DNA from: Verrucomicrobiota bacterium
Lineage (GTDB): Bacteria; Verrucomicrobiota; Verrucomicrobiia; Opitutales; Opitutaceae
Reading direction: 5' to 3'
Length of the DNA stretch: 16,118 nt
Assembly: GCA_030916665.1 (NCBI GenBank)
Contig: JAUPWC010000251.1
Location: 1 to 16,118 of the forward strand
Below the pieces are notes generated by a model that saw only the letters and a program-made list of their open reading frames with translations, did no database searches and was not told the origin of the DNA. Shown one piece after another: positions 745 through 16,118 of the stretch (positions within the stretch are counted from its first letter, which is position 1; each line of letters begins with the position of its first letter). The position numbers and the translations under genes are program-made.

Positions 745-1932
745 ATGGATCACACCATGCCACGGCCAACTCCTGCCTCTCCCACTGCTGCCATCGTCGG
801 CACCGGTTTCATCGGCCCAGTTCACCTCGAGGCCTTGCGACGCCTGGCGATTCCCGTGCGCGGAATTCTTGGCTCGACGCCAGAAAAGTCCACTGCCGCC
901 GCGCGCAGCCATGGACTTGCTGTCGGCTACGCCTCCTTCGCCGAAATCCTCGCCGATCCAAACGTACAGGTCCTCCACCTCACCTCCCCCAACCGGCTCC
1001 ACCACCGGCAGGTGATCGACGCCCTAGCCGCCGGCAAACACGTGATCTGCGAGAAACCGCTCGGCATGACCTCGGCGGAGACAGCCGAACTGGTGGCGGC
1101 GGCCGCCGCGAATCCGCACCTGATCTGCGCGGTAAACTACAACATCCGCTTTTATCCCTGCATGCTGCACGCCCGGTCGCTTATCCAGCGCTGGGAACTG
1201 GGCGAGGTGTTCCACCTGCACGGCAGCTACGAGCAGGACTGGCTGCTCCTGCCGACCGATTTCAACTGGCGCGTGCTCGCAGAGGAGGGCGGCGAACTCC
1301 GCGCCGTCGGCGATGTTGGCACACACTGGCTCGATCTGGCCCAATTTGTCACCGGCTTGGAGGTGGAGGAAGTCTGCGCGGACCTCCGCACGGTCCACCC
1401 CGTGCGCCAGCGCCCCGCCCAAGGCTCGGTTGAGACTTTTTCCGGGAAGAAAGGCGCCCCACCCCCCGCGGTTAAACCCGTGGCGATCACCACCGACGAC
1501 TACGCATCGATCTTGCTGCGCTTCAAGGGTGGCGCGCGCGGCTGTGTGACGGTTTCCCAAGTCACAGCCGGCCGAAAAAACTGTGTCCGCCTGGAAGTCG
1601 CAGGCTCCAAACAGGCCCTGGCTTGGAACAGCGAGCGCCCTGATGAGCTCTGGCTGGGCCAACGCGGTGCGCCCAATCAGCTCATGTTGCGTGATCCGTC
1701 GATGCTGAGTGCGGATGTCGCCGCCTATTCGAACTACCCCGCCGGCCACGCCGAGGGTTTCCCCGACGGCTTCAAGCAACTCTACCGGGCCATCTACGCG
1801 GACATCAGCGCCGGGCGCCGTTCCGCCGAACCGCTTTATGCGACTTTTGCCGACGGTCACCGCGAACTTCTGCTTTGCGAAGCCATCGCCCGCAGCCATC
1901 GCACCGGAGCCTGGGTGAAAGTCGGATCCTGA
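745..1932 (+). CDS. Gfo/Idh/MocA family NAD(P)-dependent oxidoreductase
   Basis: The 395-residue protein has the two-domain layout of this family: an N-terminal Rossmann fold with the dinucleotide loop GTGFIG at residues 19-24, the EKP motif at 103-105 whose lysine takes part in catalysis, and a GDVGTHWLD segment at 189-197 whose His194 is the expected catalytic histidine. Family members oxidise or reduce hydroxyl groups of sugars, inositols or their derivatives in the cytoplasm. A second in-frame ATG at 757 gives a more typical start, since the first residues before AAIVGTG are Pro-rich and probably disordered; neither start has a Shine-Dalgarno sequence. It is the first gene of the plus-strand operon and is followed after 26 bases by a TIM-barrel isomerase, a pairing common in inositol and sugar-acid loci. 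The exact substrate is not predictable. Confidence 0.9.
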   Translation: MDHTMPRPTPASPTAAIVGTGFIGPVHLEALRRLAIPVRGILGSTPEKSTAAARSHGLAVGYASFAEILADPNVQVLHLTSPNRLHHRQVIDALAAGKHVICEKPLGMTSAETAELVAAAAANPHLICAVNYNIRFYPCMLHARSLIQRWELGEVFHLHGSYEQDWLLLPTDFNWRVLAEEGGELRAVGDVGTHWLDLAQFVTGLEVEEVCADLRTVHPVRQRPAQGSVETFSGKKGAPPPAVKPVAITTDDYASILLRFKGGARGCVTVSQVTAGRKNCVRLEVAGSKQALAWNSERPDELWLGQRGAPNQLMLRDPSMLSADVAAYSNYPAGHAEGFPDGFKQLYRAIYADISAGRRSAEPLYATFADGHRELLLCEAIARSHRTGAWVKVGS

Positions 1933-1958
1933 AAAACTGTTAACCCCATCCCTACCCC

Positions 1959-2876
1959 ATGAAATTAGGATTCGTTTCCGCCATTCTGCCTGATCAGTCC
2001 CTCGACGAAGTGCTGGCCTTCGCCAGGGCCAACCGTTTTCAAACAGTTGAGATCATGTGCTGGCCCGTCGGCAAGGCCGAGCGCCGCTACGCGGGCGTGA
2101 CCCACATTGATGTCACGACCCTCGACGCCGCCGGCGCCGCCGCCATCCGGGCGAAATTCACCGCCGCCGGCATCGGCCTTTCGGGACTTGGTTACTATCC
2201 CAACCCGCTCACCCCTGATGCAGCCGAAGCGGCCGTGTACATCGAACACCTGAAGAAGGTGATCTCTGCTGCCGCCCTGTTGGGCGTGAATCAGGTCAAC
2301 ACCTTCATCGGCCGTGACCCGGCTCGTTCGCTCGCCGACAACTGGCAGGTGTTCGAGGAACGCTGGCCGGTCATCGTTTGCCATGCCGAGCAAACGGGGG
2401 TGCGGATCGGCATCGAGAACTGTCCGATGTTCTTCAGTCAGGACGAGTGGCCCGGCGGGAAGAACCTCGCCACCTCTCCGCGCAATTGGCGGGAACTCTT
2501 CCGCCGCATCCCCAGTCCGGCCCTCGGTCTAAATTATGATCCGTCTCATCTGGCCTGGCAGATGATGGATCCGATCAGCCCACTGCGGGAGTTCGCCAGT
2601 CGCATCTTCCATGTCCACGCCAAGGATGTTCAGATCGATCGGGCAAAGCTGAACGACGTCGGCATCATGGCCACGCCCTTGGAGTTTCACCAACCGGTGC
2701 TGCCCGGCCGGGGTGTGGTCGACTGGCCCCTCTTTTTCCAGACCCTTTCCGCCATTGGCTACCAGGGGCCCGTTTGCATTGAGGTCGAAGACCGCGCCTA
2801 TGAGGGCTCCCTCGAATCCCGGCAAAGGGCGCTGCGCGAAAGCGGGGCATTCCTGCAGCCGCTCCTGTCCAGATGA
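1959..2876 (+). CDS. Sugar phosphate isomerase/epimerase-like TIM barrel (AP endonuclease family 2 fold)
   Basis: This 305-residue protein belongs to the xylose-isomerase-like TIM-barrel superfamily that includes IolE, IolI, hydroxypyruvate isomerase and ketose 3-epimerases. The expected metal-binding carboxylates and histidines are visible: Glu153 in IGIEN, Asp194 and His197 in YDPSHL, His218 and His220 in HVHAKD, and Glu275 in CIEVED. The enzyme probably isomerises, epimerises or dehydrates a keto-sugar or keto-polyol with a divalent metal. Its stop codon overlaps the ATG of the ROK kinase gene by four bases (ATGA), so the two are very likely translationally coupled. The leader is pyrimidine-rich (ACCCCATCCCTACCCC) and has no Shine-Dalgarno sequence. 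The specific reaction (IolE-like dehydration or simple isomerisation) cannot be told apart here. Confidence 0.87.
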
Positions 2877-3853
2877 GCCCGGATAAGAAGAGACTGTTTG
2901 CCGGCGTCGATCTCGGTGGCACCAACTTCACCGTCGGTTTCGGCGACGCCAGCGGCCAACTCGTGGCCGAGGAAAAGCAGCCGACGGCGAGTCATGAAGG
3001 TCCGGCGGCCGTGGTGGAACGCATCGCCGATACGATCGACCGCCTGGCGGCCCGGGCCGGACAACGGCCGGCCGCGGTGGGGCTCGGCGTGCCCGGTCTG
3101 GTGGATGTCCCCACCGGCGTGACTCGTTTTCTGCCCAATTTGCCGACCCAATGGCGCGATGTGCATGTGGGGGCGAATCTTTCCGCCCGACTGAAATGCC
3201 CCGTGTATCTGTTGAATGATGCCCGGGCGGCGACCTTGGGTGAATTCATGTTCGGCCACGGACGGGACGTCCAGTCCATGATCTTGTTCACCCTGGGCAC
3301 CGGTGTTGGCGGGGGAGTGGTCATTGACGGACAACTTCGGCTGGGCCCGTTGGGAGCGGCGGGTGAGCTGGGCCACATTTGCGTGCAACCGGACGGCCCG
3401 TGGTGCAGCTGCGGCAGCCAGGGTTGCTTGGAAACGCTGGTGAGCGGACCGGCCCTGACCGCCGAGGGCATCCGCCTCCTTCTCAGTGGCAATGCCCCCC
3501 GCTTGCACGAGCTCTGCGCCGGTGATGTCGCCCGGGTCAGCTGCGAACTCATGGGAGCGGCGGCGCGGGCCGGCGATCCCGGCGTGCAGGCCGCCCTCGA
3601 CCGCGCCGGCAGCTACCTGGGACAGGTGGCGGCGGGCGTGGTGCTGACCCTGCATCCTGAGCTGATTGTCCTCGGTGGCGGCGTGGCGGCGTTGGACGAC
3701 CTGCTGATCGTCCCGCTTCGTCGCACTCTCCTGCAGCGGGTGAAAATGTTTCCCCCCGACGATATCCGCATTTTGCGCTCCCAACTCGGAACTCGCGCCG
3801 GCGTCTTGGGCGGTCTCGCCGTCGCGGTCCAAGGCGGCGTGCGCCGAGCATAG
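2873..3853 (+). CDS. ROK family sugar kinase (glucokinase-like)
   Basis: The 326-residue protein shows all hallmarks of a catalytically active ROK kinase: the phosphate loop DLGGTN at 13-18, the catalytic Asn-Asp pair at 115-116, the GTGVGGG ATP-binding stretch near 142-148, the substrate-binding ELGH at 165-168 and a complete zinc motif with Cys178, Cys180 and Cys185. There is no N-terminal helix-turn-helix, so it is a kinase and not a ROK repressor. It would phosphorylate a hexose or hexose-like compound with ATP. It overlaps the preceding isomerase gene by four bases. In this operon it takes the place a PfkB-type kinase (IolC) holds in inositol loci, upstream of an aldolase that would need a phosphorylated substrate. 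Sugar specificity is unknown; glucokinase is only the nearest label. Confidence 0.92.
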
Positions 3854-3890
3854 TAACTTCTCCCGCAATCAACCTTTTGATCCCAAATCT

Positions 3891-5372
3891 ATGAATCCAT
3901 CAGCTTCCACGGCCCCGACGCTCAAGGCGGTCGATCACTACATTGGCGGTCAACGCCTGCCTAGCTCCGGCGCGGCCGGCACAACCTTGAATTCCCCGGT
4001 GGATGGCAAGCCTCTGGGTCTTCTCCATCCCGCCTCGACCGCCGAGTTGGACCAAACCGTGGCGGCGGCTCAAAAGGCCTTCCTTGAGTGGCGCGCCACC
4101 CCGGTGAAGGAACGGGTGCAACCGCTCTTCCGCTTCAAGCAGCTCGTCGAAGACAACATCGCCGAACTCTCGCAACTCGTCACAGCCGAGAACGGCAAGA
4201 CCCCGGCCGAGTCCGAGGCCGGCATTCGCAAGGGCCTTGAGGTCGTCGAGTATGCCACTTCCCTGCCGCAGCTCATCACCGGCGAACTCCTGGAAGTGAG
4301 CAGCGGGGTCGACTGCTACACGCGCAGCTACCCGCTCGGCGTCACCGTCGGCATCACCCCGTTTAATTTCCCGGCGATGGTCCCCTTTTGGATGTTCCCC
4401 TTGGCGATCGCGACAGGAAACAGCTTCATCCTGAAGCCGTCTGACCAGGTTCCGTTCACGCCCCTGCGGCTGGCCGAGCTGCTGAGCCAGGCCGGGCTGC
4501 CGGCCGGTGTCTTTAACGTGCTGCAGGGCGGACGCGAGACCGTCGAGGCTCTGCTCGATCATCGCGGCATCGCCGCCGCCGCCTTTGTCGGCTCCACCCC
4601 GGTGGCCCGCACGGTCTACGCCCGCGGTACCGCCGCCGGCAAACGCATGCTGGCCCTCGGTGGAGCCAAAAACCATCTCGTCGTCATGCCGGATGCCGAT
4701 CCGGAGGTCACGGCCCGCAACGTCGTCAGTTCCGCCATGGGCTGCGCCGGCCAGCGCTGCATGGCCGCCAGCGTGCTGCTCGCCGTCGGCAACTGCGACC
4801 ATATCATCGACGCCATCATCAATGTGGCTCGCGGCATCCGCTTGGGCCAGGACATGGGCGCCATCATCAACCCGAAGGCGCGCGACCGCATCGTCGGCTA
4901 CATTGACCGCGCTGCCGCCGGGTCCACCAAGGTCCTGCTCGACGGCCGCGGCGCCAAGGTGGCGGGCAAGGAGGGCGGCAACTACGTCGGCCCCACCATC
5001 ATTGACGGCGTGGTGCCCGGCCAGGAATGGGCCTGCGACGAGATCTTCGGACCGGTGCTCTCCATCCTGCGGGTGAAGACCCTGGACGAGGCGCTCGCGA
5101 TCGAGAACGCCAGCCACTTCGGCAACGCCGCCGCCATCTACACCAGCGATGGCGGCACCGCCGCCTACTTCGAGGCCCGGGCCAACGCCGGCATGGTCGG
5201 CATCAACATCGGCGTGCCGGTGCCCCGCGAACCCTTCGCCTTCGGCGGCTGGAACGAATCCCGTTTCGGCATCGGCGACATCACCGGCCGCGATGGCCTG
5301 GCTTTCTGGACCAAGACCCGGAAGGTCACGAAAAAATGGTCCGCCGCCTCCGCCAAGAACTGGATGAGCTGA
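3891..5372 (+). CDS. mmsA: Methylmalonate/malonate-semialdehyde dehydrogenase (CoA-acylating)
   Basis: The 493-residue enzyme is a member of the CoA-acylating branch of the aldehyde dehydrogenase superfamily (MmsA/IolA). It has the family signature GVTVGITPFNFP around 150-161 with Asn159, Lys182 in the NAD pocket, the catalytic cysteine Cys290 in GQRCMA, and the diagnostic GINIGVPVPREPFAFGGW segment. The ELGG glutamate used as general base by hydrolytic ALDHs is replaced (LALGGAKNH around 254-262), as expected when CoA rather than water attacks the thioester. The reaction would be malonate or methylmalonate semialdehyde plus CoA and NAD to acetyl- or propionyl-CoA, CO2 and NADH. In inositol loci this is the last step (IolA). 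Start at 3891 has no Shine-Dalgarno; the gap to the kinase gene is 37 bases and to the next gene 13 bases. Confidence 0.93.
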   Translation: MNPSASTAPTLKAVDHYIGGQRLPSSGAAGTTLNSPVDGKPLGLLHPASTAELDQTVAAAQKAFLEWRATPVKERVQPLFRFKQLVEDNIAELSQLVTAENGKTPAESEAGIRKGLEVVEYATSLPQLITGELLEVSSGVDCYTRSYPLGVTVGITPFNFPAMVPFWMFPLAIATGNSFILKPSDQVPFTPLRLAELLSQAGLPAGVFNVLQGGRETVEALLDHRGIAAAAFVGSTPVARTVYARGTAAGKRMLALGGAKNHLVVMPDADPEVTARNVVSSAMGCAGQRCMAASVLLAVGNCDHIIDAIINVARGIRLGQDMGAIINPKARDRIVGYIDRAAAGSTKVLLDGRGAKVAGKEGGNYVGPTIIDGVVPGQEWACDEIFGPVLSILRVKTLDEALAIENASHFGNAAAIYTSDGGTAAYFEARANAGMVGINIGVPVPREPFAFGGWNESRFGIGDITGRDGLAFWTKTRKVTKKWSAASAKNWMS

Positions 5373-5385
5373 ACCCAATCTTCCC

Positions 5386-6432
5386 ATGAAAGCTGCTGTC
5401 TATCTCGGAAAAGAACAACTGCCCGTCCAAACCGTCGCCGACCCCACCCTCGACGATGGGGAAATGCTGCTGGCCATCGACTCATGCAGTGTTTGCGGCA
5501 CCGACCTGCGCACCTATCGCCATGGTGACGCCAAAATCAAGCCGCCGCGGATCCTGGGCCACGAGTTCTGCGGCCGCGAGGTCGAATCACGCGCCCCCGA
5601 CTCCCCCATCAAGGTCGGTGATCGGGTTGTCATGTACATCGTGCTCGTCAGTGGCACGGACCGCTATGTCGAGGCGGGGCGCGCCAACCTGACGGCGAAC
5701 CGCACCACCATTTCCTATCATCATGACGGGGCCTTCGCTCCGCTCATGAAGGTACCCGCCCTCGCCGTTCGTCAGGGCAATCTCTTCAAGGTCACCAACG
5801 ACCTCCCTTCCGATCACCTCAGTGTGGCGGAGCCGCTGGGCTGTTGCATGAACGCCCACAGCCGTCTCGGCATCGGCCTCAAGGACACGGTCGCCGTCAT
5901 CGGTGCCGGTCCCATTGGCATCATGCATGCCACGCTCGCCCGCCTGCAGGGCGCGCAACAGGTCATCGTCCTCGACAACAATCCGCGCCGGCTCGAAATG
6001 GCCCGCGCGTTCGACATCGACGCCACCGTGCTGGTCAAGCCTGACGGCTCCCACCGCGAGGAAGTGGCCCGCCTCACGGGCGGCTTCGGCCCGGATGTCG
6101 TAATCGTCGCGGTCAGTGCGGCCGCCGCCCAGAACGACGCCCTCGAAATTGCCGGCAAGGCCGGGCGCGTGAACTTCTTTGCCGGTCTGCCGAAGTCGGC
6201 GCCGACCGCCACGCTCAACGTGAACACCATCCACTACAAGGAACTCGAGATCAGCGGCTCCTATTCGGAGAAGAAGAGCGATTTCCAGGCGGCCTTCGCG
6301 CTGATCAACAGCGGCCGCTTCCCCGCCGGCAAGATCGTCACCCACACCCTGCCGCTCGCCCGGATCGAAGAGGCCTTCGGCCTGATGGAGTCCGGTGAAG
6401 CCCTCAAGGTCTGCATTCATCCGCAACTGTAA
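5386..6432 (+). CDS. Zinc-dependent alcohol/polyol dehydrogenase (MDR family, sorbitol/idonate dehydrogenase-like)
   Basis: The 348-residue medium-chain dehydrogenase keeps the catalytic zinc site: Cys37 in CGTD, His59-Glu60 in GHE, and Glu149 in AEPLG. The Rossmann loop GAGPIG is at 173-178, followed by an LDNNPRR segment whose acidic residue at the end of strand beta-2 favours NAD. The lobe that in most relatives binds a structural zinc through four cysteines is present but all four are replaced (Ser89, Asp92, Val95, Thr103). The likely reaction is reversible oxidation of a secondary hydroxyl in a polyol, sugar acid or keto-inositol, or reduction of a small ketone. It is preceded by a 13-base gap with no Shine-Dalgarno and followed after 18 bases by an aldehyde dehydrogenase. 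Substrate is not predictable; L-idonate 5-dehydrogenase, sorbitol dehydrogenase and IolM-like enzymes are the closest classes I would consider. Confidence 0.88.
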   Translation: MKAAVYLGKEQLPVQTVADPTLDDGEMLLAIDSCSVCGTDLRTYRHGDAKIKPPRILGHEFCGREVESRAPDSPIKVGDRVVMYIVLVSGTDRYVEAGRANLTANRTTISYHHDGAFAPLMKVPALAVRQGNLFKVTNDLPSDHLSVAEPLGCCMNAHSRLGIGLKDTVAVIGAGPIGIMHATLARLQGAQQVIVLDNNPRRLEMARAFDIDATVLVKPDGSHREEVARLTGGFGPDVVIVAVSAAAAQNDALEIAGKAGRVNFFAGLPKSAPTATLNVNTIHYKELEISGSYSEKKSDFQAAFALINSGRFPAGKIVTHTLPLARIEEAFGLMESGEALKVCIHPQL

Positions 6433-6450
6433 TCCGATTCCTTTTTCGCC

Positions 6451-7911
6451 ATGCCACTTACTGAAACCATCCACGAAATCCGCAACCTCATCGACGGCCG
6501 ACCGTGCCCCGCTGCTGATGGCGCGACCTTCACCATCAAGTCTCCGGCCACCGGTGAGCCGATCGGCCAGATTGCCAAGGCCGGTCAAGCGGATGTCGAC
6601 CGGGCCGTCGGCTCCGCGCAAAGCGCGTTTCCCGTTTGGGCCGCACTTACCGCCTACGAGCGCCAGAAGATCATCACCAAGGCAACGGGCTATGTGCGCA
6701 CGCGCGCCGACCACATCGGCCGCCTCATGGCGCTGGAGCAGGGTAAACCGCTCGCCCAGTCGGTTTCGGAGATCGGCGGCTCCTGCGACACCCTGGACTA
6801 CTACGCCGCCGAGGGCGTCCGCATCGAGGGCGTCATCAGCCCCACCGAGGATCGCGCCTACCGTTCTTCCATCATTTATCAGCCGGTGGGCGTCTGCGCC
6901 CTCATCACGCCTTGGAACTACCCGGTCTCCCTGCTGAGTTGGAAACTCGGCCCGGCCCTGGCCACAGGATGCACGGTGGTCGTCAAGCCCACGACGGTCA
7001 CGCCGATGTCGCCGACCGCTTTCTGCCAGGCCCTCGTCGAGGGGGGCATTCCGGCCGGTGTCATCAATGTGCTCAACGGCCCCGGCGCCTCGCTGGGTGA
7101 GGCGCTCATGCAGCATCCGTTGGTCAAGAAGATCGCCATGACCGGGTCCAGCGAAGTGGGTAAACGGATCATGCAGGTCGTCTCCCCTTTCCTCAAAAAG
7201 GTGTCCCTCGAACTGGGCGGCCACTGTCCGGCCATTGTCTGCGCCGATGCGGATCTCGACCTCGCCGCCAAGATCATCGCCTACAAGGGATTCAGGAACT
7301 GCGGCCAATCCTGCAGCTCCGTGAACCGCGTCTATGCCCATCGCTCCATTCACGACGCGCTCGTCGCGAAATTGAAGGCCATTGGGGAAAAGATGACGAT
7401 TGGTGACGGCATTACCGATCCGAAGGTGGACCTCGGGCCCATGGCCACCGCCAGCGGACCCGAGACGTCTCTGGCTCATGTGAAGGACGCCGTGCAGAAG
7501 GGCGCCAAACTGGTTACCGGCGGCCAGCGTCTCACCGGCGCGGCGTTCGCCGCAGGCCACTATTTCCCGCCCACCATCCTCACCGGTTGCTCCGCCGACA
7601 TGCTTGTCATGCGCGACGAGACTTTCGGCCCCGTGATCCCCTTCCAGGCGTTCGACACGAACGAACAGGCGATCGCCCTCGCCAATGACACGACCTACGG
7701 GCTCGCCGCCTATCTTTTCACCAAGGATCATGCCGCCACCGTAAAGATCTCGGAGGCCTTGGAAGCGGGCACCGTCTGCGTCAACCACGGCGCCGTGAAT
7801 ACCAATTACGGTCCCTACGCCGGCTGGAAGGACAGCGGCTACGGCGTCGAATTGTCCCGCAAGGCGGTCTTCGAATACCTCAAGACCAAGCACATCAAGA
7901 CCGCGATCTGA
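6451..7911 (+). CDS. NAD(P)-dependent aldehyde dehydrogenase (hydrolytic)
   Basis: This 486-residue protein is a classical aldehyde dehydrogenase: PWNYP at 154-158 with Asn156, Lys179 in VVVKP, the GSSEVG cofactor loop at 232-237, the general base Glu254 in LELGG, catalytic Cys288 in GQSCSS, and ETFGPV near 390. In contrast to the MmsA homologue earlier in the operon it keeps the glutamate base, so it should release a free acid. Succinate-semialdehyde, glycolaldehyde and lactaldehyde dehydrogenases are the nearest functional classes; the small-aldehyde product of the neighbouring aldolase or of a radical lyase would be a sensible substrate (inference). It is spaced 18 bases from both neighbours, with pyrimidine-rich leaders. 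Confidence 0.92.
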   Translation: MPLTETIHEIRNLIDGRPCPAADGATFTIKSPATGEPIGQIAKAGQADVDRAVGSAQSAFPVWAALTAYERQKIITKATGYVRTRADHIGRLMALEQGKPLAQSVSEIGGSCDTLDYYAAEGVRIEGVISPTEDRAYRSSIIYQPVGVCALITPWNYPVSLLSWKLGPALATGCTVVVKPTTVTPMSPTAFCQALVEGGIPAGVINVLNGPGASLGEALMQHPLVKKIAMTGSSEVGKRIMQVVSPFLKKVSLELGGHCPAIVCADADLDLAAKIIAYKGFRNCGQSCSSVNRVYAHRSIHDALVAKLKAIGEKMTIGDGITDPKVDLGPMATASGPETSLAHVKDAVQKGAKLVTGGQRLTGAAFAAGHYFPPTILTGCSADMLVMRDETFGPVIPFQAFDTNEQAIALANDTTYGLAAYLFTKDHAATVKISEALEAGTVCVNHGAVNTNYGPYAGWKDSGYGVELSRKAVFEYLKTKHIKTAI

Positions 7912-7929
7912 GATCTCCCAGTCTCCCCC

Positions 7930-8901
7930 ATGCTCCTCTCCCCTTCCCAGACCCGCGCACTCATCGTCGACGCGCTGCAACACAAGTACGCGGTGCTCGC
8001 CGTCAACGCTGACAGCCCGGCCGCCGTCTACGACGTGCTCGAGGCCGCCCGCCAGTGCGATGCACCCGTCATCATCGAAACCAGCCTCTGGCAGTTGAAA
8101 GGGCGCAGCTTCGGTGCCGGGGATGCCCTGCTCGGGCTCTCCCGGTATCATGCCGAGCTCAACGTGCTGGCCAACCACGCCACTTTTCAGCAGGTGCCCG
8201 TGGTCCTGCATACCGACCATATCAAGGGGCCCGAAACGACCGCGATTCTGGAATCGGCGATGCCTCGTTTCTCCTCCCTCTCGCTCGATTCCTCGGAAAT
8301 GACACCGGCGGAGAACATCGCGGCCATTGGCAAATTGTGCGCCAGCGCGACGCAGAGGAATCTTCCGCTGACGCTCGAGATGGAGGCCGGCGTGGACGCC
8401 GGCGTGTCGCCTTTGACTGATTGCGATACGCTCTTCGGTGCCGCCGAGAAAAACAATCCGGGCTACCTCGCTTGGTGGGCCCCCGGCGTAGGCACGCAGC
8501 ACGGACTCGGTTCCGATGGCTACCCGACCTTCAGCGCCGAGGCGGTTGGCGCGCACCAGAAACGGGCCACCGCGTTGGCGGGACGCCCCATTGGCATAGC
8601 CTTGCACGGTTCTTCCGGGTTGCCCGTCGCCAGCTTGCAGGCCGCCGTTCAGGCCGGGGTGTCCAAAGTCAACTGGTCCAGCGAGTCCCTCTTGCTCAGG
8701 TCGCAAGCGGCCCAGGAATACTTCTCCGCCCATCTCGCGCAGCTGGACAAAAAGCACAAGGATTGGAAAAACACGGCGATGGACAACGGACTGCAGGCGT
8801 TCGTCGCCTCCCGCTATGTGCCCAAGGTAGTTGATCGCATCAAACTGCTGGGTGGATTCTGTGCCGGGACTCGATTCCTCTCCACACTCGGCCGTAGTTG
8901 A
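7930..8901 (+). CDS. Class II (zinc) ketose-bisphosphate-type aldolase, divergent
   Basis: The 323-residue protein has the class II aldolase pattern: HTDH at 94-97, where Asp96 is the expected catalytic acid and His97 a zinc ligand, further zinc ligands His191 in GTQHG and His226 in LHGSSG, LDSSEM at 119-124, and a possible metal-site or catalytic Glu150 or Glu152 in LEMEAG. The phosphate-anchoring stretch, usually Asn-x-x-Thr/Asp, reads Asn248-Trp-Ser-Ser-Glu, so the substrate may differ from fructose or tagatose 1,6-bisphosphate. It would cleave a phosphorylated keto-sugar made by the upstream dehydrogenase, isomerase and kinase into two three-carbon units, like IolJ in inositol catabolism. 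It is the last gene of the operon; a 156-bp repeat begins at the base directly after its TGA stop. Confidence 0.87.
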   Translation: MLLSPSQTRALIVDALQHKYAVLAVNADSPAAVYDVLEAARQCDAPVIIETSLWQLKGRSFGAGDALLGLSRYHAELNVLANHATFQQVPVVLHTDHIKGPETTAILESAMPRFSSLSLDSSEMTPAENIAAIGKLCASATQRNLPLTLEMEAGVDAGVSPLTDCDTLFGAAEKNNPGYLAWWAPGVGTQHGLGSDGYPTFSAEAVGAHQKRATALAGRPIGIALHGSSGLPVASLQAAVQAGVSKVNWSSESLLLRSQAAQEYFSAHLAQLDKKHKDWKNTAMDNGLQAFVASRYVPKVVDRIKLLGGFCAGTRFLSTLGRS

Positions 8902-9057
8902 CCCGGATATTTCACACCTTGATCCAAAACCTATGACAAAATACCCGTTTTCTTCGACGCTGAGTCGAAGAAAAGCGACCAGGTCGCGGTTAGCCCCGAC
9001 CGAGTCGGCCCGACAGGGCGAACATTCCACACCAGCAGGTGTGAAATGTTCGGGCTA
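8902..9057. repeat. 156-bp multi-hairpin repeat with terminal inverted repeats, copy A (MITE-like)
   Basis: This segment matches 9721-9876 at 143 of 156 positions with no gaps, in the same orientation, and the similarity stops sharply on both sides. The first 17 bases (8902-8918) and bases 9038-9054 are inverted repeats matching at 15 of 17 positions. Inside are five consecutive stem-loops: an 11-bp perfect stem (8948-8958 with 8964-8974), GCGAC/GTCGC (8975-8979 with 8983-8987), CCGAC/GTCGG (8996-9000 with 9004-9008), GCCC/GGGC (9008-9011 with 9016-9019), and a 15-bp stem with one mismatch (9019-9033 with 9038-9052). It starts one base after the aldolase stop codon. AGTTG occurs at 8896-8900 and 9058-9062, a possible target duplication. 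It may serve as the operon's 3'-end structure. Confidence 0.85.
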
Positions 9058-9876: not shown

Positions 9877-10995
9877 TCACCCACCCCGTGGCAATCTGAA
9901 GCCGCGCGAGTTCTTGATCCGCTGCGCCAACTCCCGGGCATATCTTTCGCCATCCAGCGGCAAATCGACCGCGCGATTCTCCCAGGCCGACAAGATCATC
10001 GCATTCGCCAACTCGAGCGAATGGGCCCCCTCGTGCAGCGCCGCGATCAATGGCCCCCCGTGCCGAATCGCCGCCACGAAGTTGGCCATGACATCCGCAT
10101 GCCGACCACCCGTATCAGCGGCCAGGTGTGGCACCGTCGCGCAAGGCAAAGTGGCAAAAGGCGCCGACGCCTGACGGGAAAAGACGGTCATGTCCGACGC
10201 ATTCTGCTGATGCTGCAACTGGCCATTCTCGTAAACAAGCCGTCCGCGCTCCCCGACAATTTCCAGGCGATTGGTACCAGGTGACTCGCCGGTTGAGGCG
10301 ATGAACACCCCGGAGGTTCCGTTCTCGTACTCCAAATAGGCGGTTACGTCATCCTCAACCTCGATGTCGTGATAGCGGCCAAAGCCACAAAAGGCCCGGA
10401 TTCGGCACGGCCTGCCGAAGATCCATTGCCAGAGGTCGAGTTGATGCGGGCACTGATTCAACAGCAGACCGCCCCCCTCCCCCGCCCAGGTACCCCGCCA
10501 CGGGGAAGTGGCATAGTACGCAGCCGGCCGAAACCAATTGGTCACAATCCAGTTGAAACGGCGAATTTCACCGAGTTCCCCACCCTGCACCAGGGCCCGG
10601 ATCTGCTGGAAGATCGGATTGGTTCTCTGCTGAAACATGACCGCCATCACCTGGGAATCGGAGCGCCTCGCCTGCAAGATCGCCGCCACATCACTCTTCT
10701 GGATGCCCACCGGCTTTTCCACCAAGACGTGCAACCCCGCTTGCAGGGCCCGAATGCACAGATCTTTGTGCGTCGGATGAGGTGTGGCCACCAGCACGGC
10801 ATCCACCGCGGCGGACTCAATCAGCGCCTCCGCCGATGGGAAACAACGGGCCGATGATGACCCGAGGAAATCCGCCGATTCACATTTGGCCAATGCGGTC
10901 AGCTGCAGACCGGGAACATGCCCCGCCGCCACACTGGCCGCATGGGCTTTGCCCATCACGCCAAGTCCGATGACGCCAAGACGAATGGCTTCCAT
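9877..10995 (-). CDS. Gfo/Idh/MocA family NAD(P)-dependent oxidoreductase
   Basis: The 372-residue protein has the Rossmann loop GLGVMG at 10-15, the EKP motif at 93-95 and the catalytic histidine His184 in LLLNQCPHQLDLW, so it looks active. It differs clearly in sequence from the dehydrogenase at 745-1932 and the partial ones at the window edges. It is the last gene of the minus-strand set and starts seven bases after the stop codon of the glycyl radical enzyme activase, so it is almost surely co-transcribed with the GRE. A weak AAGG lies five bases before its ATG, the only Shine-Dalgarno-like match among the genes here. The role is probably oxidation or reduction of the GRE substrate or product; a 1,5-anhydrofructose reductase type activity is one option because known enzymes of that kind belong to this family (inference). 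Confidence 0.9.
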   Translation of the reverse strand: MEAIRLGVIGLGVMGKAHAASVAAGHVPGLQLTALAKCESADFLGSSSARCFPSAEALIESAAVDAVLVATPHPTHKDLCIRALQAGLHVLVEKPVGIQKSDVAAILQARRSDSQVMAVMFQQRTNPIFQQIRALVQGGELGEIRRFNWIVTNWFRPAAYYATSPWRGTWAGEGGGLLLNQCPHQLDLWQWIFGRPCRIRAFCGFGRYHDIEVEDDVTAYLEYENGTSGVFIASTGESPGTNRLEIVGERGRLVYENGQLQHQQNASDMTVFSRQASAPFATLPCATVPHLAADTGGRHADVMANFVAAIRHGGPLIAALHEGAHSLELANAMILSAWENRAVDLPLDGERYARELAQRIKNSRGFRLPRGG

Positions 10996-11002
10996 GCCGG
11001 CC

Positions 11003-11911
11003 TTATCCGATGCGCACCTTCTGACAACCGAGCCCGTTCAGGGCTTCGATCCACTGTCCCGGTTCGGTCGCGGTCGGAACGCGCAGCTGCGAAGATGCCT
11101 CGGCGATTCCGATACTCGGCCGCTTGCTGTTCCCGAAATCATGATACGGCATCAGCTCAATGCCGCGTATGCGCGGGTATTTTTCATCCAGCGCCCTGAT
11201 TCCCGCGAAGTGCTCCGCGGTGTCGTTCAACCCCGGCACGATCGGACATCGGAGCAGGATATCATTCCCCCGCTGATAGGCGGTGTCGAGGTTCGCCAGA
11301 ATGAGCTCGTTCGAAACCCCGGTAAACGAACGGTGATCCTCATCTTTCGTGGCCTTGTAATCGAAGAGCAAAAGATCCACCGCGGGCAGCACGGCCTCGA
11401 ACTTCTTCGCCGCGACAAATCCCGAGGTCTCGACGCAGGTGTGGATGTTCATCTGTTTGGCGCGATTCAACAGTTCCAGGGCGAACGCCTGCTGGTAGAG
11501 CGGTTCCCCCCCGCTGAGCGTCATCCCGCCGCCCGAATTGCGATAGAATTCCACATCGGCCAACACCTCCGCCATGATGGCATCCGCGTCCATCTCCTTG
11601 CCGACGATCCTCAGGCCACGCGAATTGCATTCATCGACGCACCGCGAGCAAGTGGCACATTGCCCGAACTCGATCGCATGGTCGGATGGCCCGACGTGAT
11701 GGACCCCGTTGGAGCAGACCGCCTCGCAGGACCCGCACGCCACGCAGCGCTCTTCGGCAAAGAAGAGCTGCGGTCGCGGTGCAATCGCCTCTGGGTTGTG
11801 ACACCAGAGGCATTGCAACGGGCACCCCTTGAGGAAGATCGTAGTCCGGATTCCCGGGCCGTCGTGCAAGGAGGCCCGTTGGATATCGGTTACGATGCCC
11901 CGTTTGCTCAC
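11003..11911 (-). CDS. Glycyl radical enzyme activating enzyme (radical SAM, PFL-AE family)
   Basis: This 302-residue protein is a radical S-adenosylmethionine activase. The CxxxCxxC cluster motif is at Cys30, Cys34, Cys37 (GCPLQCLWCHNPE), the SAM-binding TLSGGEP follows near 130-136, and between them is an inserted ferredoxin-like region with two four-cysteine sets (Cys56, 59, 62, 66 and Cys85, 88, 91, 95), expected to bind two extra 4Fe-4S clusters. Such extra clusters are typical of activases for eliminase-type glycyl radical enzymes and absent from the pyruvate formate-lyase activase itself. It would abstract a hydrogen from the glycine of the GRE encoded 11 bases upstream. The start is a GTG (minus strand 11911-11909); a GAGG lies too far upstream (about 13 bases) to be a good ribosome site. 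Confidence 0.95.
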   Translation of the reverse strand: MSKRGIVTDIQRASLHDGPGIRTTIFLKGCPLQCLWCHNPEAIAPRPQLFFAEERCVACGSCEAVCSNGVHHVGPSDHAIEFGQCATCSRCVDECNSRGLRIVGKEMDADAIMAEVLADVEFYRNSGGGMTLSGGEPLYQQAFALELLNRAKQMNIHTCVETSGFVAAKKFEAVLPAVDLLLFDYKATKDEDHRSFTGVSNELILANLDTAYQRGNDILLRCPIVPGLNDTAEHFAGIRALDEKYPRIRGIELMPYHDFGNSKRPSIGIAEASSQLRVPTATEPGQWIEALNGLGCQKVRIG

Positions 11912-11922
11912 AGGCGAGGGCC

Positions 11923-14184
11923 TCAGTAGGTCTTGCGGCTCAGGATCTCAAGCTGCACATCCTTGGGCAGGTCGATATAGCGGGCGCTAAACCCGCCGAT
12001 CCGGACGAAGAGATCCTGGTACTTTTCGGGCTCGGCGAGCGCGTGTTCGAGATCCCCCTTGTTGATCACCGTGATCATGGCCTGCGCCCCACCCTTCTTG
12101 AAGTAGGTGGTCAGGGTCGCCTCCAGCTTGGCCTTGTCCTTGCTGAAGAAATCATACCCGAACCGCATGTTCTGGACCGCCCCGGCGTGGATCGCGTGGC
12201 TCGGTTTGACGATCGAGTTGATCAGGGCGGTGATGCCCTTCTTGTCGTTTCCGCCCGCGGGGGTGTTCGCATTGGCCATGGGTCCACCCGCCTTGCGTCC
12301 ATCGGGTGTCGCTCCGACCCAGCGTCCCAGAATGGTGTTCTGCTTGTTGTTGATGAGCACGTTCAGGTACCAATCGAGGTTCGTGCGCTTTCGCTGGTCG
12401 CGCACGGTGTTGCAGATGAATTCGTGCAATTCCACCATGATATCATCCGCATAGGCATCGTCGTTGCCATATTTCGGGCAGTCGATCATCAGGCGGCGCT
12501 CTTTCTCGAAGCCCACGAAATTGGCGTTCAACGCCTGGATGAGCCGCTCGGCGGAGATCACCTTGTCATCGAAAACCAGTTTCTTGATCGCCGTGAGGCT
12601 GTCCGCGGCATTGACCGTGCCAAAGGACTCGAGCGAGCCGCCCAGGTACTTGATGCCTCCGGAGAAGATGGCTTTTCCGCGCGGCAGGCAATCGTCGTAG
12701 AGCAGGCTGAGGTAGAGATAAGACGCCTGCTTGCCGGATTCGACATACTCCAGCTCCTCATGGTCGGCCAGAATCTCGATGAAGAATGCCAGCTGCTTTT
12801 TGAAGGCGGCGAAGAAATCTTCGAAGGTGCGGAAATCACGCAAATCACCGGTCGGCAAGCCCAGGCGCTTGCTCATGATGTGATCGACGCCATCACGCAT
12901 GGTTACATCCAGGGCCTTCAACACGTTGAGGGAGCCGCTCGGGGTACCAAAACCAACATGGTCCAGAACGATTTCCCCGCAGCCCAGGGGCATGTACTGC
13001 TCCGCCTCCTCGACCGTCACTTCGTAGGCATGGGCCACGCCGGGAACCAAAACGTCGTCGTTATACAGCAGCGGGAAGGTGTGACCGGCGCCGATCAGCT
13101 CAAGGGAGCGTTCCATCAAGAGGGGATTCATGCCCTCATAGAAGCGCAGGGTCAGCTGCGGCAGAATCGCCCGCCCGTAGGTCCGCGTTGTCTCGAGCGC
13201 CAGCAGGGCAAACCGGTCGGCATTGGCCTCGTTGCGCCGGCCCCGGCCGCCGATGATGATCCGACCATCGACATCGCGGAACAGCTGGTTGATCAGCTTC
13301 CAGAGAGACTGCATCAAGGACAGCGCTTCCGGTTCCGTGATGATACCCGCCTCGAGGTCGTGCACGTAGAGATCGCCGAGATAGACGTCCATCCGGCCCA
13401 ACTCCAGCGAGCCGCTCACGAGCGTGTAGAGCCATGACAGCTGCAAGGCCTCGTAGAACGACTCCGGCTTGCGCACGGCATTCCAACCCAGGACCGCGGC
13501 CAACTTTCTCAACTGCTCGGCCCGGACCGGATCCGAACAGGCCTGCGCCTTGGCCTCGGCTTCCTTTTGGAAGTGGAGGGAGGAGTCGACCAGCACCTGG
13601 ATGGCCATGAGCAGGCCCTCGAACAGCAAATGGTCGCCCTGTGAGGCTTTCGCCTTGTCGCGGTATTCCGTCACTTCCTGCTTGAGTCCGGGCAGACCCA
13701 GCCGAACCAGCTTCTCGTAGTCGACGAAGACGCCCGCCATCCGATAGATCGGCTGGGCGATCATCGGCTTGAAATTATAAGGGAGCGGCACGATCTCATC
13801 GCGGAAGAGCACCGGCAGCATCTTCGGGGTGAAGGCCGACTCCACCTTGGCCTTGGAATTTTCCTTCTTCCAGAAGTGGAGCATCTCCATGACCGCATCG
13901 CGTTGGGCGATCGGGATGTTTCCGCGCTCGACGGCATCGATGATTTTCTGCTCATGGCAGAAATACCCATAGGCGCAGTTCGGCGGGGCATTATGGGGGG
14001 AGAATCCAACCCAGCCCCAGTTGGTGCGACCGGCCAGCCGGTCGCCGTCCTGAATCGTACCCAAGGTCGCGGGAAATTGAACCCGCAGGCAATTTGCCTC
14101 CCGGATGGCAACATGGGATTGCATGTTGTTGCGGTAGGTTTGGGTGAACTCCAGTTCCATGGAGAAATCGTCAATCTTGGTCAT
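11923..14184 (-). CDS. Glycyl radical enzyme of the eliminase type, substrate unknown (often annotated pyruvate formate-lyase family)
   Basis: The 753-residue protein has both radical sites. Cys402 lies in a Gly-Cys-Gly-Glu motif (401-404), and the C-terminal glycine loop is VRIGGFSARY with the radical expected on Gly731, 22 residues before the end. The Glu two residues after the cysteine is the general base pattern of dehydratases and lyases (glycerol, propanediol, choline, hydroxyproline, isethionate), whereas true pyruvate formate-lyase has Cys-Cys; formate production is therefore unlikely. Other family stretches are SGGIKYLGG, AADSLTAIKKLVF and VGATPDGRKAG. The middle residue Gly in GCGE and a cysteine- and histidine-containing N-terminal part (residues 56-79) differ from the characterised enzymes I remember. 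The activase follows after 11 bases; a GH130 gene lies 66 bases upstream. The ATG at 14184 has no Shine-Dalgarno. The enzyme would be oxygen-sensitive. Confidence 0.93.
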   Translation of the reverse strand: MTKIDDFSMELEFTQTYRNNMQSHVAIREANCLRVQFPATLGTIQDGDRLAGRTNWGWVGFSPHNAPPNCAYGYFCHEQKIIDAVERGNIPIAQRDAVMEMLHFWKKENSKAKVESAFTPKMLPVLFRDEIVPLPYNFKPMIAQPIYRMAGVFVDYEKLVRLGLPGLKQEVTEYRDKAKASQGDHLLFEGLLMAIQVLVDSSLHFQKEAEAKAQACSDPVRAEQLRKLAAVLGWNAVRKPESFYEALQLSWLYTLVSGSLELGRMDVYLGDLYVHDLEAGIITEPEALSLMQSLWKLINQLFRDVDGRIIIGGRGRRNEANADRFALLALETTRTYGRAILPQLTLRFYEGMNPLLMERSLELIGAGHTFPLLYNDDVLVPGVAHAYEVTVEEAEQYMPLGCGEIVLDHVGFGTPSGSLNVLKALDVTMRDGVDHIMSKRLGLPTGDLRDFRTFEDFFAAFKKQLAFFIEILADHEELEYVESGKQASYLYLSLLYDDCLPRGKAIFSGGIKYLGGSLESFGTVNAADSLTAIKKLVFDDKVISAERLIQALNANFVGFEKERRLMIDCPKYGNDDAYADDIMVELHEFICNTVRDQRKRTNLDWYLNVLINNKQNTILGRWVGATPDGRKAGGPMANANTPAGGNDKKGITALINSIVKPSHAIHAGAVQNMRFGYDFFSKDKAKLEATLTTYFKKGGAQAMITVINKGDLEHALAEPEKYQDLFVRIGGFSARYIDLPKDVQLEILSRKTY

Positions 14185-14212
14185 GGCAGTAAGTGTCTTT
14201 GGTTAATTAATT

Positions 14213-14229
14213 CGGCCTGGTACTGGCCG
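14213..14229. promoter_or_regulatory. Stem-loop between the GH130 and GRE genes
   Basis: CGGCC (14213-14217) and GGCCG (14225-14229) form a 5-bp GC stem with a seven-base loop in the 66-base gap. On the minus strand it is followed by AATTAATTAA, which is AT-rich but not a T-run, so it is at best a leaky terminator, an RNA processing or stabilising structure, or the edge of a separate GRE promoter region. Confidence 0.3.
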
Positions 14230-14250
14230 GCTTGAAGAGTGTCCGGGTGA

Positions 14251-15264
14251 TTACTTGGTGGCGTGCTTCTTTACATACGCGACGAGTTCGTCGGCTTTCG
14301 TGTAGGCCACCGCCGTGCAGGTGTCGGCCGCGCCATAGTAAATGGCGATCCGTCCGGTGGCGCTGTCGGTCAGGGCCGCCGTGGGGAAAACGACATTTCC
14401 GACATACCCGGCGGTCTCGTAGATCACCTCGGGTGACATGATCGGGAATTGGCAACGATAGAGGACCTTCCACGGTTCATCGAGATCGAGCAACGCGGCG
14501 CCCATGCAATAGACGAAGCTGTCGCAGGTGTCGGAAACGCCGTGATAGAGCAGCAACCAACCCTCAGTCGTTTCAATCGGCACGGGGCCGGGGCCGATTT
14601 TAACGCGTTCCCATTTACGTGGTCCCCGGGTCATCACGATGCGGTGCTTGCCCCAATAGGTCAGGTCCGGGCTATCGCTATAGAAGATATCGCCGTAATT
14701 CACCGCCATGCCCAGCCCCATCGGCCGGCTCAGCATCGCGTACTTGCCCCCGATCTTCTTGGGAAAGAGGACGCCGTTGCGGTTATAGGGCAGGAACGCG
14801 TTCTCGAGCTGGTGAAAGGTCTTGAAGTCCTTGGTCCACGCCTGGCTGATCGTCGAGCCGTAGTAGGAGTTGCACCAGGTCACGTAATACTTGTCCCCGA
14901 TCTTACAGAGGCGGGGATCATAGGCGAAGGTCGGCTTGCCCAGAAGCGGATCAGCCCCCTCGAAGCGAATCGGGGTGGGATCGAGCTCCCACTTCAATCC
15001 GTCCGGGCTCCGGCCGAGGTGCAGATACGGCGTCATGCATAGCCAATCGACGCGGAATACTCCGATGAAGCCATCCCCCCACGGCATGGCGCAGCTGTTG
15101 TAGGCGCTGCGCGCGTTCGCAAAGGGATGCAGATCGATGATCGGATTCCCACTATGCCGCCAGACCAAGGCGTTGGAATCAGCCGGGCGCTCCTCCCAAG
15201 GAATATTGGGCAGGGGTTTCCCCACCAAGATGCGTTGATTGACCGCTGCTTTTTTCGTTTTCAT
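14251..15264 (-). CDS. Glycoside hydrolase family 130 protein (beta-mannoside phosphorylase-like)
   Basis: This 337-residue protein reads as a five-bladed beta-propeller of family GH130. The catalytic aspartate is Asp116 in the YDPRL motif; other family stretches are ARSAYNSCAMPWGDGF (51-66), NRNGVLFPKKIGGKY (161-175), KIGPGPVPI (222-230), YHGV with His241, and IAIYYGAADT near the C-terminus. Characterised GH130 enzymes mostly phosphorolyse beta-mannosidic bonds to give mannose 1-phosphate. Basic residues and His241 that could bind phosphate are kept (Arg162, Lys169-Lys170), favouring a phosphorylase over a hydrolase. I see no signal peptide, so it acts in the cytoplasm on an imported glycoside. 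It is upstream of the glycyl radical enzyme gene on the same strand. The leader lacks a Shine-Dalgarno. Substrate and subfamily cannot be fixed from sequence reading. Confidence 0.9.
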   Translation of the reverse strand: MKTKKAAVNQRILVGKPLPNIPWEERPADSNALVWRHSGNPIIDLHPFANARSAYNSCAMPWGDGFIGVFRVDWLCMTPYLHLGRSPDGLKWELDPTPIRFEGADPLLGKPTFAYDPRLCKIGDKYYVTWCNSYYGSTISQAWTKDFKTFHQLENAFLPYNRNGVLFPKKIGGKYAMLSRPMGLGMAVNYGDIFYSDSPDLTYWGKHRIVMTRGPRKWERVKIGPGPVPIETTEGWLLLYHGVSDTCDSFVYCMGAALLDLDEPWKVLYRCQFPIMSPEVIYETAGYVGNVVFPTAALTDSATGRIAIYYGAADTCTAVAYTKADELVAYVKKHATK

Positions 15265-15436: not shown

Positions 15437-16118
15437 TTACGAGATGAACTCGGCCACGGATCGCACTTTCGCGACTTGCCCGGTTCGGATGGATTCCTTC
15501 ATGGCCTCAACCACGCATTGGGCTTGCAAGGCGGCCTCCAACCCACACGCGGTGGCCCGCTTTTCAAGGATGCAGGAGACAAACTCACGGAGGTTATAAC
15601 GCATCAGCTGGAATCGTGGCGGGGTCTCCCAGGATTGGGAGCTGGGCGCCTTGTCCATACGGGTGGCGAAATTGATCGCCTTGTACTGCCAATCCCGGCC
15701 GGTGACGATGGCCTCGCCGTTTCGACCAAACACATGCATGGACATCGGTTCGGCCGCCATGGCGTTGGTGCCGAGTCCACCGCCATTCAAGACCGCCACC
15801 GAGCCATTTTCATACCTGATCGTGAGCACGGCTGAATCTTCCAGACCAGTCGTGCCAAAATAGTGGCGTCCCACGGCGTACACTTCCACCGGCTTACCAC
15901 AGACAAAGTTCGCCGAATCATACAGATGGATGATGGCCTCGTTTAGCAGTCCGTTGCCATTCGCCGGATCCCAAGCCCAGTGCCCTTCCGGCGGATTCCA
16001 ACCGGTCTGCAATTCCGCGTTCAGCGAGAGCACCGGACCCACGACCCCGGTATCGATCAGCTCACGCAGCTTAACCATCGGCGGCATGTAGCGCATCGGG
16101 TACTCCATCATGAAGAAG
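15437..16118 (-). CDS. Gfo/Idh/MocA family oxidoreductase, C-terminal part (cut by window edge)
   Basis: About 227 C-terminal residues are visible and the frame remains open at the window edge; the ATG at 16111 is internal because the family needs an N-terminal Rossmann domain that is not here. The substrate domain is recognisable from YMPPMVKLRELIDTGVVG, the NEAIIHLYDSANFV helix with the presumed catalytic histidine, and an ESIRTGQVAKV tail. It is transcribed in the same direction as the GH130 and GRE genes but with a 172-base gap containing palindromes, so it may or may not share their transcript. It is the fourth member of this family in the window. Substrate unknown. Confidence 0.85.
   Translation of the reverse strand, partial: FFMMEYPMRYMPPMVKLRELIDTGVVGPVLSLNAELQTGWNPPEGHWAWDPANGNGLLNEAIIHLYDSANFVCGKPVEVYAVGRHYFGTTGLEDSAVLTIRYENGSVAVLNGGGLGTNAMAAEPMSMHVFGRNGEAIVTGRDWQYKAINFATRMDKAPSSQSWETPPRFQLMRYNLREFVSCILEKRATACGLEAALQAQCVVEAMKESIRTGQVAKVRSVAEFIS

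Follow-up and report, generated by a model that had tools for sequence, protein, structure and literature searches.

What does a glycyl radical enzyme (GRE) do in an operon for glycoside breakdown? The question is raised by contig JAUPWC010000251.1 of a Verrucomicrobiota assembly (GCA_030916665.1), a stretch of 16,118 nucleotides that we call the window. The bacterium probably belongs to the genus Lacunisphaera. Here, a GRE gene lies beside the gene for a phosphorylase of glycoside hydrolase (GH) family 130. The chemistry of GREs is within reach of few other enzymes, and new GRE subfamilies, once characterised, have tended to uncover new anaerobic pathways. Many abundant gut GREs are described as being of unassigned function in parts of a 2024 review (PMC11574389). 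An earlier note, made from the DNA sequence alone, drew attention to this locus. We find that the GRE and the GH130 protein have been inherited together, which points to an unstudied anaerobic breakdown of a mannose-containing compound.

A GRE encoded beside a GH130 phosphorylase

According to the listing of open reading frames (ORFs) and Pfam, four genes form one minus-strand run. They encode the GH130 protein (14251..15264), the GRE (11923..14184, 753 amino acids), a radical-SAM GRE activase of the three-cluster type (11003..11911, 302 amino acids) and a Gfo/Idh/MocA dehydrogenase (9877..10995). The intergenic gaps are 66 bases between GH130 and GRE, 11 between GRE and activase and 7 between activase and dehydrogenase. 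The earlier note had given this gene content, including a complete GRE with Cys402, Glu404 and Gly731, and these spacings; both are confirmed by the ORFs and their coordinates, Pfam, TIGR02494 and sequence motifs.

The GRE matches PF02901 (357 bits) and PF01228 (59 bits). Together with the radical glycine, the active-site cysteine and the adjoining activase, these domains place it in the glycyl radical enzyme superfamily. The activase scores 323.5 bits against TIGR02494 (cut-off 174) and contains one CX3CX2C and two CX2CX2CX3C motifs. The GH130 protein matches PF04041 (202 bits). In this assembly, which is 85% complete and from which further copies could be missing, the GRE is the sole PF02901 match and the adjoining GH130 the sole PF04041 match. 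Contamination of the metagenome-assembled genome (MAG) is unlikely because the same block recurs in G018 and in the near-complete genome G017, where the contig that bears it is 3.3 Mb long.

Placing the GRE among characterised enzymes

The earlier note had assigned the GRE to no substrate class, and no characterised subfamily that we compared fits it. The protein fell below every NCBIfam equivalog cut-off tried. Its scores, as bits over cut-off, were 270.6/1100 for HypD, 258/1000 for HpsG, 241/1000 for HpfG, 237/1050 for CutC, 190/1100 for indoleacetate decarboxylase, 169/1150 for 4-hydroxyphenylacetate (HPA) decarboxylase and 83/994 for pyruvate formate-lyase (PFL; TIGR01255). The broad model TIGR01774 gave 297 bits (cut-off 678). 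Identity to 12 reference GREs was 21–29%.

A maximum-likelihood tree was built from 50 sequences, comprising 38 subfamily members and the 12 references (YbiW, PflD, three PFLs, glycerol dehydratase 1r8w, HypD 6vxc and five other GREs). The rows for 1r8w and 6vxc are partial, covering their aligned parts only, and CutC and the sulfonate lyases stand outside the tree. The 38 subfamily GREs formed a single clade (support 100/100), set off by a long stem (1.5 changes per column), and none of the 12 references fell inside. The GRE could be a PFL isoform that lies near glycan genes by chance; it does match a PFL-like Pfam family, and pyruvate arises from sugar catabolism. However, the PFL model scored less than a tenth of its cut-off, and the GRE has C-G-E in place of the C-V-S found in the three PFL references. 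This explanation is already largely refuted and, in our view, almost certainly wrong. The cut-offs, the tree and the residues rule out PFL and the named eliminase families. Judged by its sequence, the GRE is a member of an uncharacterised subfamily outside every characterised one compared.

The alignment shows what the subfamily has kept and what sets it apart. C402, E404 and G731 are present in all 38 members. R308, G403 (immediately after C402) and N612 form a signature found in 38/38 members and 0/12 references. R316, Q343 and R735 occur in 37 of the 38 members and in no reference (one being gapped at 735), and G730 in all members and one of the 12 references (one being gapped at 730).

An AlphaFold2 model of the GRE had a mean pLDDT of 90.3, and its closest solved fold was 1r8w (template modelling (TM) score 0.87, 25% identity). 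We take H164, H281, Y339, D447 and Y640 of 1r8w to be the substrate contacts of glycerol dehydratase. Opposite these, the GRE has G151, G258, D306, S416 and I611, respectively; none of the dehydratase residues is retained. Which residues pair up varies with the alignment: phmmer instead left H281 and Y339 facing gaps and paired D447 with P415. The loops bearing H281 and Y339 are shorter in the GRE. On this alignment, we interpret the GRE as an eliminase-type barrel whose pocket has probably been rebuilt.

These observations bear on a simple explanation, in which the GRE is a conventional dehydratase of glycerol or 1,2-propanediol and serves as an electron sink while the phosphorylase splits a mannosyl-glycerol-type compound. 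Glycerol and propanediol dehydratases are indeed among the best sequence and fold neighbours. Conversely, identity to 1r8w is 28.8%, all five presumed contacts are changed, and in the tree the dehydratase sides with other GREs, apart from the clade. Nor did we notice a gene for a microcompartment in the block. We therefore consider an ordinary diol dehydratase very unlikely. The best explanation is a predicted working eliminase-type radical enzyme of a glycan-associated subfamily.

A distinct GH130 subclade accompanies the GRE

The GH130 proteins encoded beside close relatives of the GRE form a group of their own. Nine GRE-linked GH130s share at least 70.7% identity with each other and at most 56.6% with 23 others. 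The 23 were TM1225, RaMP2 and 21 unlinked relatives, the latter being the best-scoring unlinked matches given loci and not a random draw. In a survey scoring up to five candidates per genome, GH130 matches at E <= 1e-90, GRE-linked ones included, were found in 44 of the 386 genomes surveyed from G424's order and in 30 of 374 Verrucomicrobiota. Among the candidates scored in these genomes there was no match between 57 and 72% identity, and all matches at 72% or above (G000, G424 and G426) lay beside a GRE.

The catalytic machinery appears intact. We take D116 to be the catalytic aspartate and R162, K222 and H241 to be the basic residues that bind phosphate; all four are kept in 32/32 GH130s. 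The difference lies elsewhere. Ordinary relatives have a loop, RPSD-GHTPF, that presumably lines the +1 subsite. Its S, D, H, T and F occur in 23/23 ordinary relatives and in 0/9 GRE-linked proteins. The latter have RPMG-GMAVNY (one with L for M, and other single changes). In the window, the loop corresponds to the codons of residues 180–192, RPMGLGMAVNYGD (14689..14727, minus strand). Positions 248 and 249 are D and S in the linked group, and in the others N (20/23) and G (23/23). Parts of one paper describe three basic phosphate-binding residues kept by GH130 phosphorylases, and a +1 subsite that varies with the accepted sugar, be it Glc, Man or GlcNAc (PMC4599007). Portions of two others identify TM1225 as a beta-1,4-mannooligosaccharide phosphorylase (PMC8950772) and Asp104 as the catalytic Asp of Uhgb_MP (PMC10619541).

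Because the linked proteins differ at columns that are invariant in ordinary relatives, the GRE-linked GH130 probably uses an aglycone other than Man, Glc or GlcNAc, which are the usual ones. The earlier note had proposed a beta-mannoside-like glycoside as the compound broken down. This stands as a fair inference for the mannoside; it needs amending for the aglycone.

A conserved block in two phyla

Scanning genome contigs identified 26 GRE loci. By identity to the window's GRE these were one Lacunisphaera (89%), nine Bacteroidota MAGs (74–78%), Ruminiclostridium termitidis (58%) and 15 others (39–45%). The clade of 38 covers four phyla. Within Lacunisphaera the GRE is sparse, with two of 20 other genomes carrying it (G017 at 100% identity, G018 at 89%). 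Strong matches were found in 10/387 Verrucomicrobiota genomes (E <= 1e-100) and, at E <= 1e-90, in 5/393 genomes of the order of G424, in 6/294 of the phylum of a planctomycete, and in 1/58 of the order of R. termitidis, the one being R. termitidis itself. Each total includes the starting genome.

The conserved block consists of genes for an SSF symporter, GH130, the GRE and the activase. Of the nine close Bacteroidota loci, six show this order (L022–L024, L026, L027 and L030), and two of these six have two extra genes between GH130 and GRE. L025 has GH130, GRE and activase, and its contig starts just before them; L028 and L029 are interrupted by contig ends. For the window, the symporter gene lies beyond the edge and is known from relatives. 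Between Lacunisphaera and Bacteroidota, identity is 74–78% for the GRE, 72–78% for GH130 and 74–77% for the symporter (taken from G017). In the tree, the two Lacunisphaera rows stand next to eight Bacteroidota rows, with R. termitidis outside these. Given the similar identities and the placement beside Bacteroidota, we read this as a probable transfer of the block between phyla, in either direction.

The content of the block is relevant to the possibility that the GRE is an unphosphorylated counterpart of YbiW and PflD, namely a lyase that opens the ring of a 1,5-anhydrohexitol or cyclic polyol and feeds a radical glycolysis. YbiW and a PflD have been solved with anhydrohexitol 6-phosphates, as the titles of the structures state, so GREs can bind sugar-derived rings, and no gene of the phosphotransferase system (PTS) was noticed in the module. 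Against this, the GRE is 24–25% identical to YbiW and PflD, and both lie outside the fully supported clade. Furthermore, we saw no gene for an aldolase of the fructose-6-phosphate aldolase (FSA) type within the conserved block, whereas in E. coli fsaA is two genes away from ybiW. We give this lyase only a slim chance.

Beside the block in L023, L026, L027, L029 and L030 are genes that cluster with a metallophosphoesterase-CBM6/CBM35 protein and a DUF5010-CBM35 protein. One member per cluster was scanned, and both carried secretion-sorting tails. These proteins hint at a phosphate-bearing extracellular glycan.

Gene neighbourhoods across the subfamily

The earlier note had suggested listing the neighbourhoods of close relatives. 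For this we used our own gene calls, Pfam on chosen genes, and BLAST of other genes to those. The counts are lower bounds, since neighbours were scanned in part and some loci stop at contig ends. At GC-rich loci the gene orders are approximate, as the gene caller took shadow ORFs there (including part of 5587-9030 in the window) and may have missed some real genes.

A glycoside hydrolase or phosphorylase lay within three genes of the GRE at no fewer than 24 of 38 loci (17 by label, seven more by Pfam). GH130 accounted for 12 of the 38: the window, L021–L027, L030, L042, L082 and L083. The GH130 of L082 is of the mannosyl-glucose-phosphorylase type (609 bits to 3was), and that of L042 is of a distant type. 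L036 has a GH130 resembling beta-1,2-oligomannan phosphorylases, which is five genes away and so outside the count. Other partners within three genes were GH94 (L031, L061), GH38 (L039, L068), GH16 (L064, L066, L069, L070), GH43 (L029), GH127 (L033), GH5 (L062) and a GH42/GH26-like protein (L063). At L084, whose partial GRE is not among the 38, an apiosidase-like gene adjoins the activase. A recognised activase was found within two genes at 28/38 loci. The GRE did not cluster tightly with a characterised subfamily, and relatives were found near GH130 and dehydrogenase genes; the earlier note had named the opposite of each as grounds for abandoning its proposal.

As a control, ten neighbours of three other GREs were scanned, five around L019 and L020 and five around L018. 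L019 encodes a PFL and L020 clusters with it; no glycosidase was found among the five neighbours scanned at these PFL-type loci. Around L018 (3212-12165), genes for a sugar transporter, a GH106 alpha-L-rhamnosidase and an aldose 1-epimerase accompany an unrelated GRE, which represents another sugar-linked type.

A gene for a PhyH-type dioxygenase lies within two genes of the subfamily GRE at L040, L041, L043, L045, L046, L068 and L088, two Cerasicoccus loci included. At L040, L041 and L043 a TIM-barrel gene stands alongside it. An oxygen-dependent PhyH protein is an odd companion for an oxygen-sensitive GRE; the two might be alternative routes for one step.

A possible pathway

We think it highly probable that the GRE and the GH130 protein share one pathway. 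Several observations favour the explanation proposed here. C402, E404 and G731 are intact in every subfamily member, an activase is near in most loci, and the GH130 is remodelled and tied to the GRE. The similar divergence of GRE, GH130 and symporter between Lacunisphaera and Bacteroidota, and the loss of the presumed diol-dehydratase contacts, also speak for it.

The whole chain is more tentative, and we put it a little short of an even chance. In this chain, the SSF symporter would bring in a beta-mannoside. GH130 would use phosphate to split it, yielding alpha-mannose 1-phosphate together with an unusual aglycone that is probably a diol resembling a polyol or sugar. The activase would set a radical on G731, from where it would move to C402. 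The resulting thiyl radical would abstract hydrogen from a C-OH carbon of the released aglycone, which we infer to be the substrate of the GRE. A neighbouring group would then depart with the help of E404 to leave a deoxy-carbonyl product; the leaving group and the order of steps are part of the proposal. In Lacunisphaera, the Gfo/Idh dehydrogenases may add an oxidation or reduction of a sugar intermediate.

Several observations weigh against this pathway. In the partly scanned neighbourhoods, no glycosidase was found within three genes of the GRE at 14 of the 38 loci. These are L037 (on a short contig), L036, L032 (with an acetylesterase instead), L034 (with a neighbour 83% identical to an L016 gene that has only a sub-cut-off MGH1-like match), L040, L041, L043, L045 and L088 (with a PhyH dioxygenase gene nearby instead), and L038, L044, L065, L085 and L086 (with neighbours scanned in part or not at all). 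No recognised activase lay within two genes at 10/38 loci, namely L031 (where it is four genes away), L033, L036, L038, L039, L040, L045, L070, L086 and L088. Since the unrelated GRE of L018 also has a glycosidase, GH106, as one of its five scanned neighbours, proximity is not unique to the subfamily and by itself is suggestive and no proof. In Lacunisphaera, genes for an aldo/keto reductase, a TonB receptor and a Gfo/Idh protein intervene between symporter and GH130. The activase is less conserved, at 53–59% between Lacunisphaera and Bacteroidota. No gene for an aldolase, kinase or reductase was seen to recur consistently in the blocks of Bacteroidota. In R. termitidis, the next relative, the GRE lies near a laminaribiose-phosphorylase-like gene (950 bits) and there is no GH130 in the locus. 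Finally, because the subfamily adjoins so many GH families (GH94, GH38, GH5, GH16, GH26, GH127 and others) and GH130s of two other types, the tie to one aglycone may be limited to this clade. With three GH130 types in all, besides these families, the whole subfamily may or may not share a single substrate.

A rival explanation is that the GRE attacks the sugar itself. In that case a ketyl radical at C2 of the mannoside, or of mannose 1-phosphate, would expel the C1 substituent (aglycone or phosphate), and GH130 would act in parallel or downstream. A reaction common to sugars fits the spread of glycosidases within three genes (24/38) better than one aglycone does. Likewise, with H164, H281, Y339, D447 and Y640 replaced, the shorter H281 and Y339 loops may admit a larger substrate. 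However, we know of no precedent among GREs, and of no GRE shown to act on an unphosphorylated sugar. The energy saved by phosphorolysis would be lost, and the altered GH130 loop indicates the aglycone side. We regard attack on the sugar as improbable, and prefer elimination on the aglycone released by GH130.

The many glycosidase partners across the subfamily favour a sugar-like substrate. A broader idea, for which we see a small though not negligible chance, is that a subfamily in four phyla is devoted to glycan breakdown, acting beside glycosidases and phosphorylases on unphosphorylated sugars, glycosides or sugar aglycones. The chemistry would possibly be radical beta-elimination of a glycosidic substituent, and in the clade of the window's GRE a co-evolved GH130 would supply a beta-mannosyl compound so far unreported as a GH130 substrate.

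The dehydrogenase and other genes in the window

The best solved relative of the window's dehydrogenase (9877..10995, minus strand) is the P2B11 glucuronide-3-dehydrogenase 8tdi, with 262 bits and 41.5% identity over 364 residues; the next-best chain scored 101 bits. The NCBIfam models for glycoside-3-dehydrogenases scored far below cut-off (BT_2158 30/750, BT_2159 28/650). A tie to a 3-keto route of glycoside cleavage is plausible. Orthologues were seen in Lacunisphaera loci alone, so the dehydrogenase is probably a lineage-specific add-on, and we do not count it among the core genes of the pathway. A few other loci (L023, L035, L042 and L044) do contain Gfo/Idh genes, though of other types. 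The earlier suggestion that the gene set forms one route probably holds for the linked GRE and GH130 and is weak for the Gfo/Idh/MocA dehydrogenase. A second Gfo/Idh/MocA gene (15437..16117, minus strand), also lineage-specific by Pfam and locus comparison, lies directly upstream of GH130, outside 9877..15264; its 5' end is lost at the contig end.

Divergent from the GRE block is a plus-strand run at 745-8901 (Pfam, NCBIfam). It encodes a Gfo/Idh dehydrogenase, an AP_endonuc_2 TIM barrel, a ROK-family protein, an aldehyde dehydrogenase, a Zn-alcohol dehydrogenase, a second aldehyde dehydrogenase and then a class II aldolase-like protein. The run adjoins the GRE block in G017 too, and part of it does in G018. 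An ORF of 1,147 codons at 5587-9030 on the minus strand is not a gene; it is a GC-rich shadow antisense to three real plus-strand genes.

Significance and comparison with known systems

A search of open-licence PubMed Central papers, with subscription papers and preprints mostly outside it, gave no account of this gene set among the matches listed, a result that is provisional. In the portions of that literature retrieved, GRE and GH130 were mentioned together only in a review, in unrelated places. GRE with anhydroglucitol gave no match in the open-licence literature. In four phyla, neighbouring genes link the subfamily to carbohydrate breakdown, and the linked phosphorylase offers a way in: the acceptor that GH130 uses with mannose 1-phosphate would reveal what the GRE probably acts on. 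The remodelled GH130 subclade is itself a candidate for a new phosphorylase specificity.

Four known systems resemble parts of the locus. The window's GH130 is 53.8% identical to TM1225 and 53.3% to RaMP2, both GH130_2 beta-1,4-mannoside phosphorylases, and shares their catalytic acid and basic residues. It differs in that the loop residues S/D/H/T/F and several other columns are replaced in 9/9 linked proteins (Uhgb_MP is outside this alignment). The dehydrogenase resembles P2B11 8tdi in sequence, and its gene stands outside the conserved module. YbiW and PflD, reportedly anhydrohexitol-6-phosphate lyases, share the C-x-E motif and are GREs of sugar-derived molecules. Conversely, they are distant in sequence (24–25%), fall outside the clade, and in E. 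coli are encoded near PTS or FSA genes. The remaining parallel is with the B12-independent glycerol dehydratase 1r8w and propanediol dehydratase (5i2g, 5i2a). The GRE model has TM scores of 0.87 to the former and 0.86–0.88 to the latter, and the fold, the thiyl Cys, the Glu two residues on and the glycyl radical are shared. Unlike 1r8w, the window's GRE (28.8% identical) has replaced H164, H281, Y339, D447 and Y640, and whereas the dehydratases belong to diol operons, this GRE is encoded in a glycan operon.

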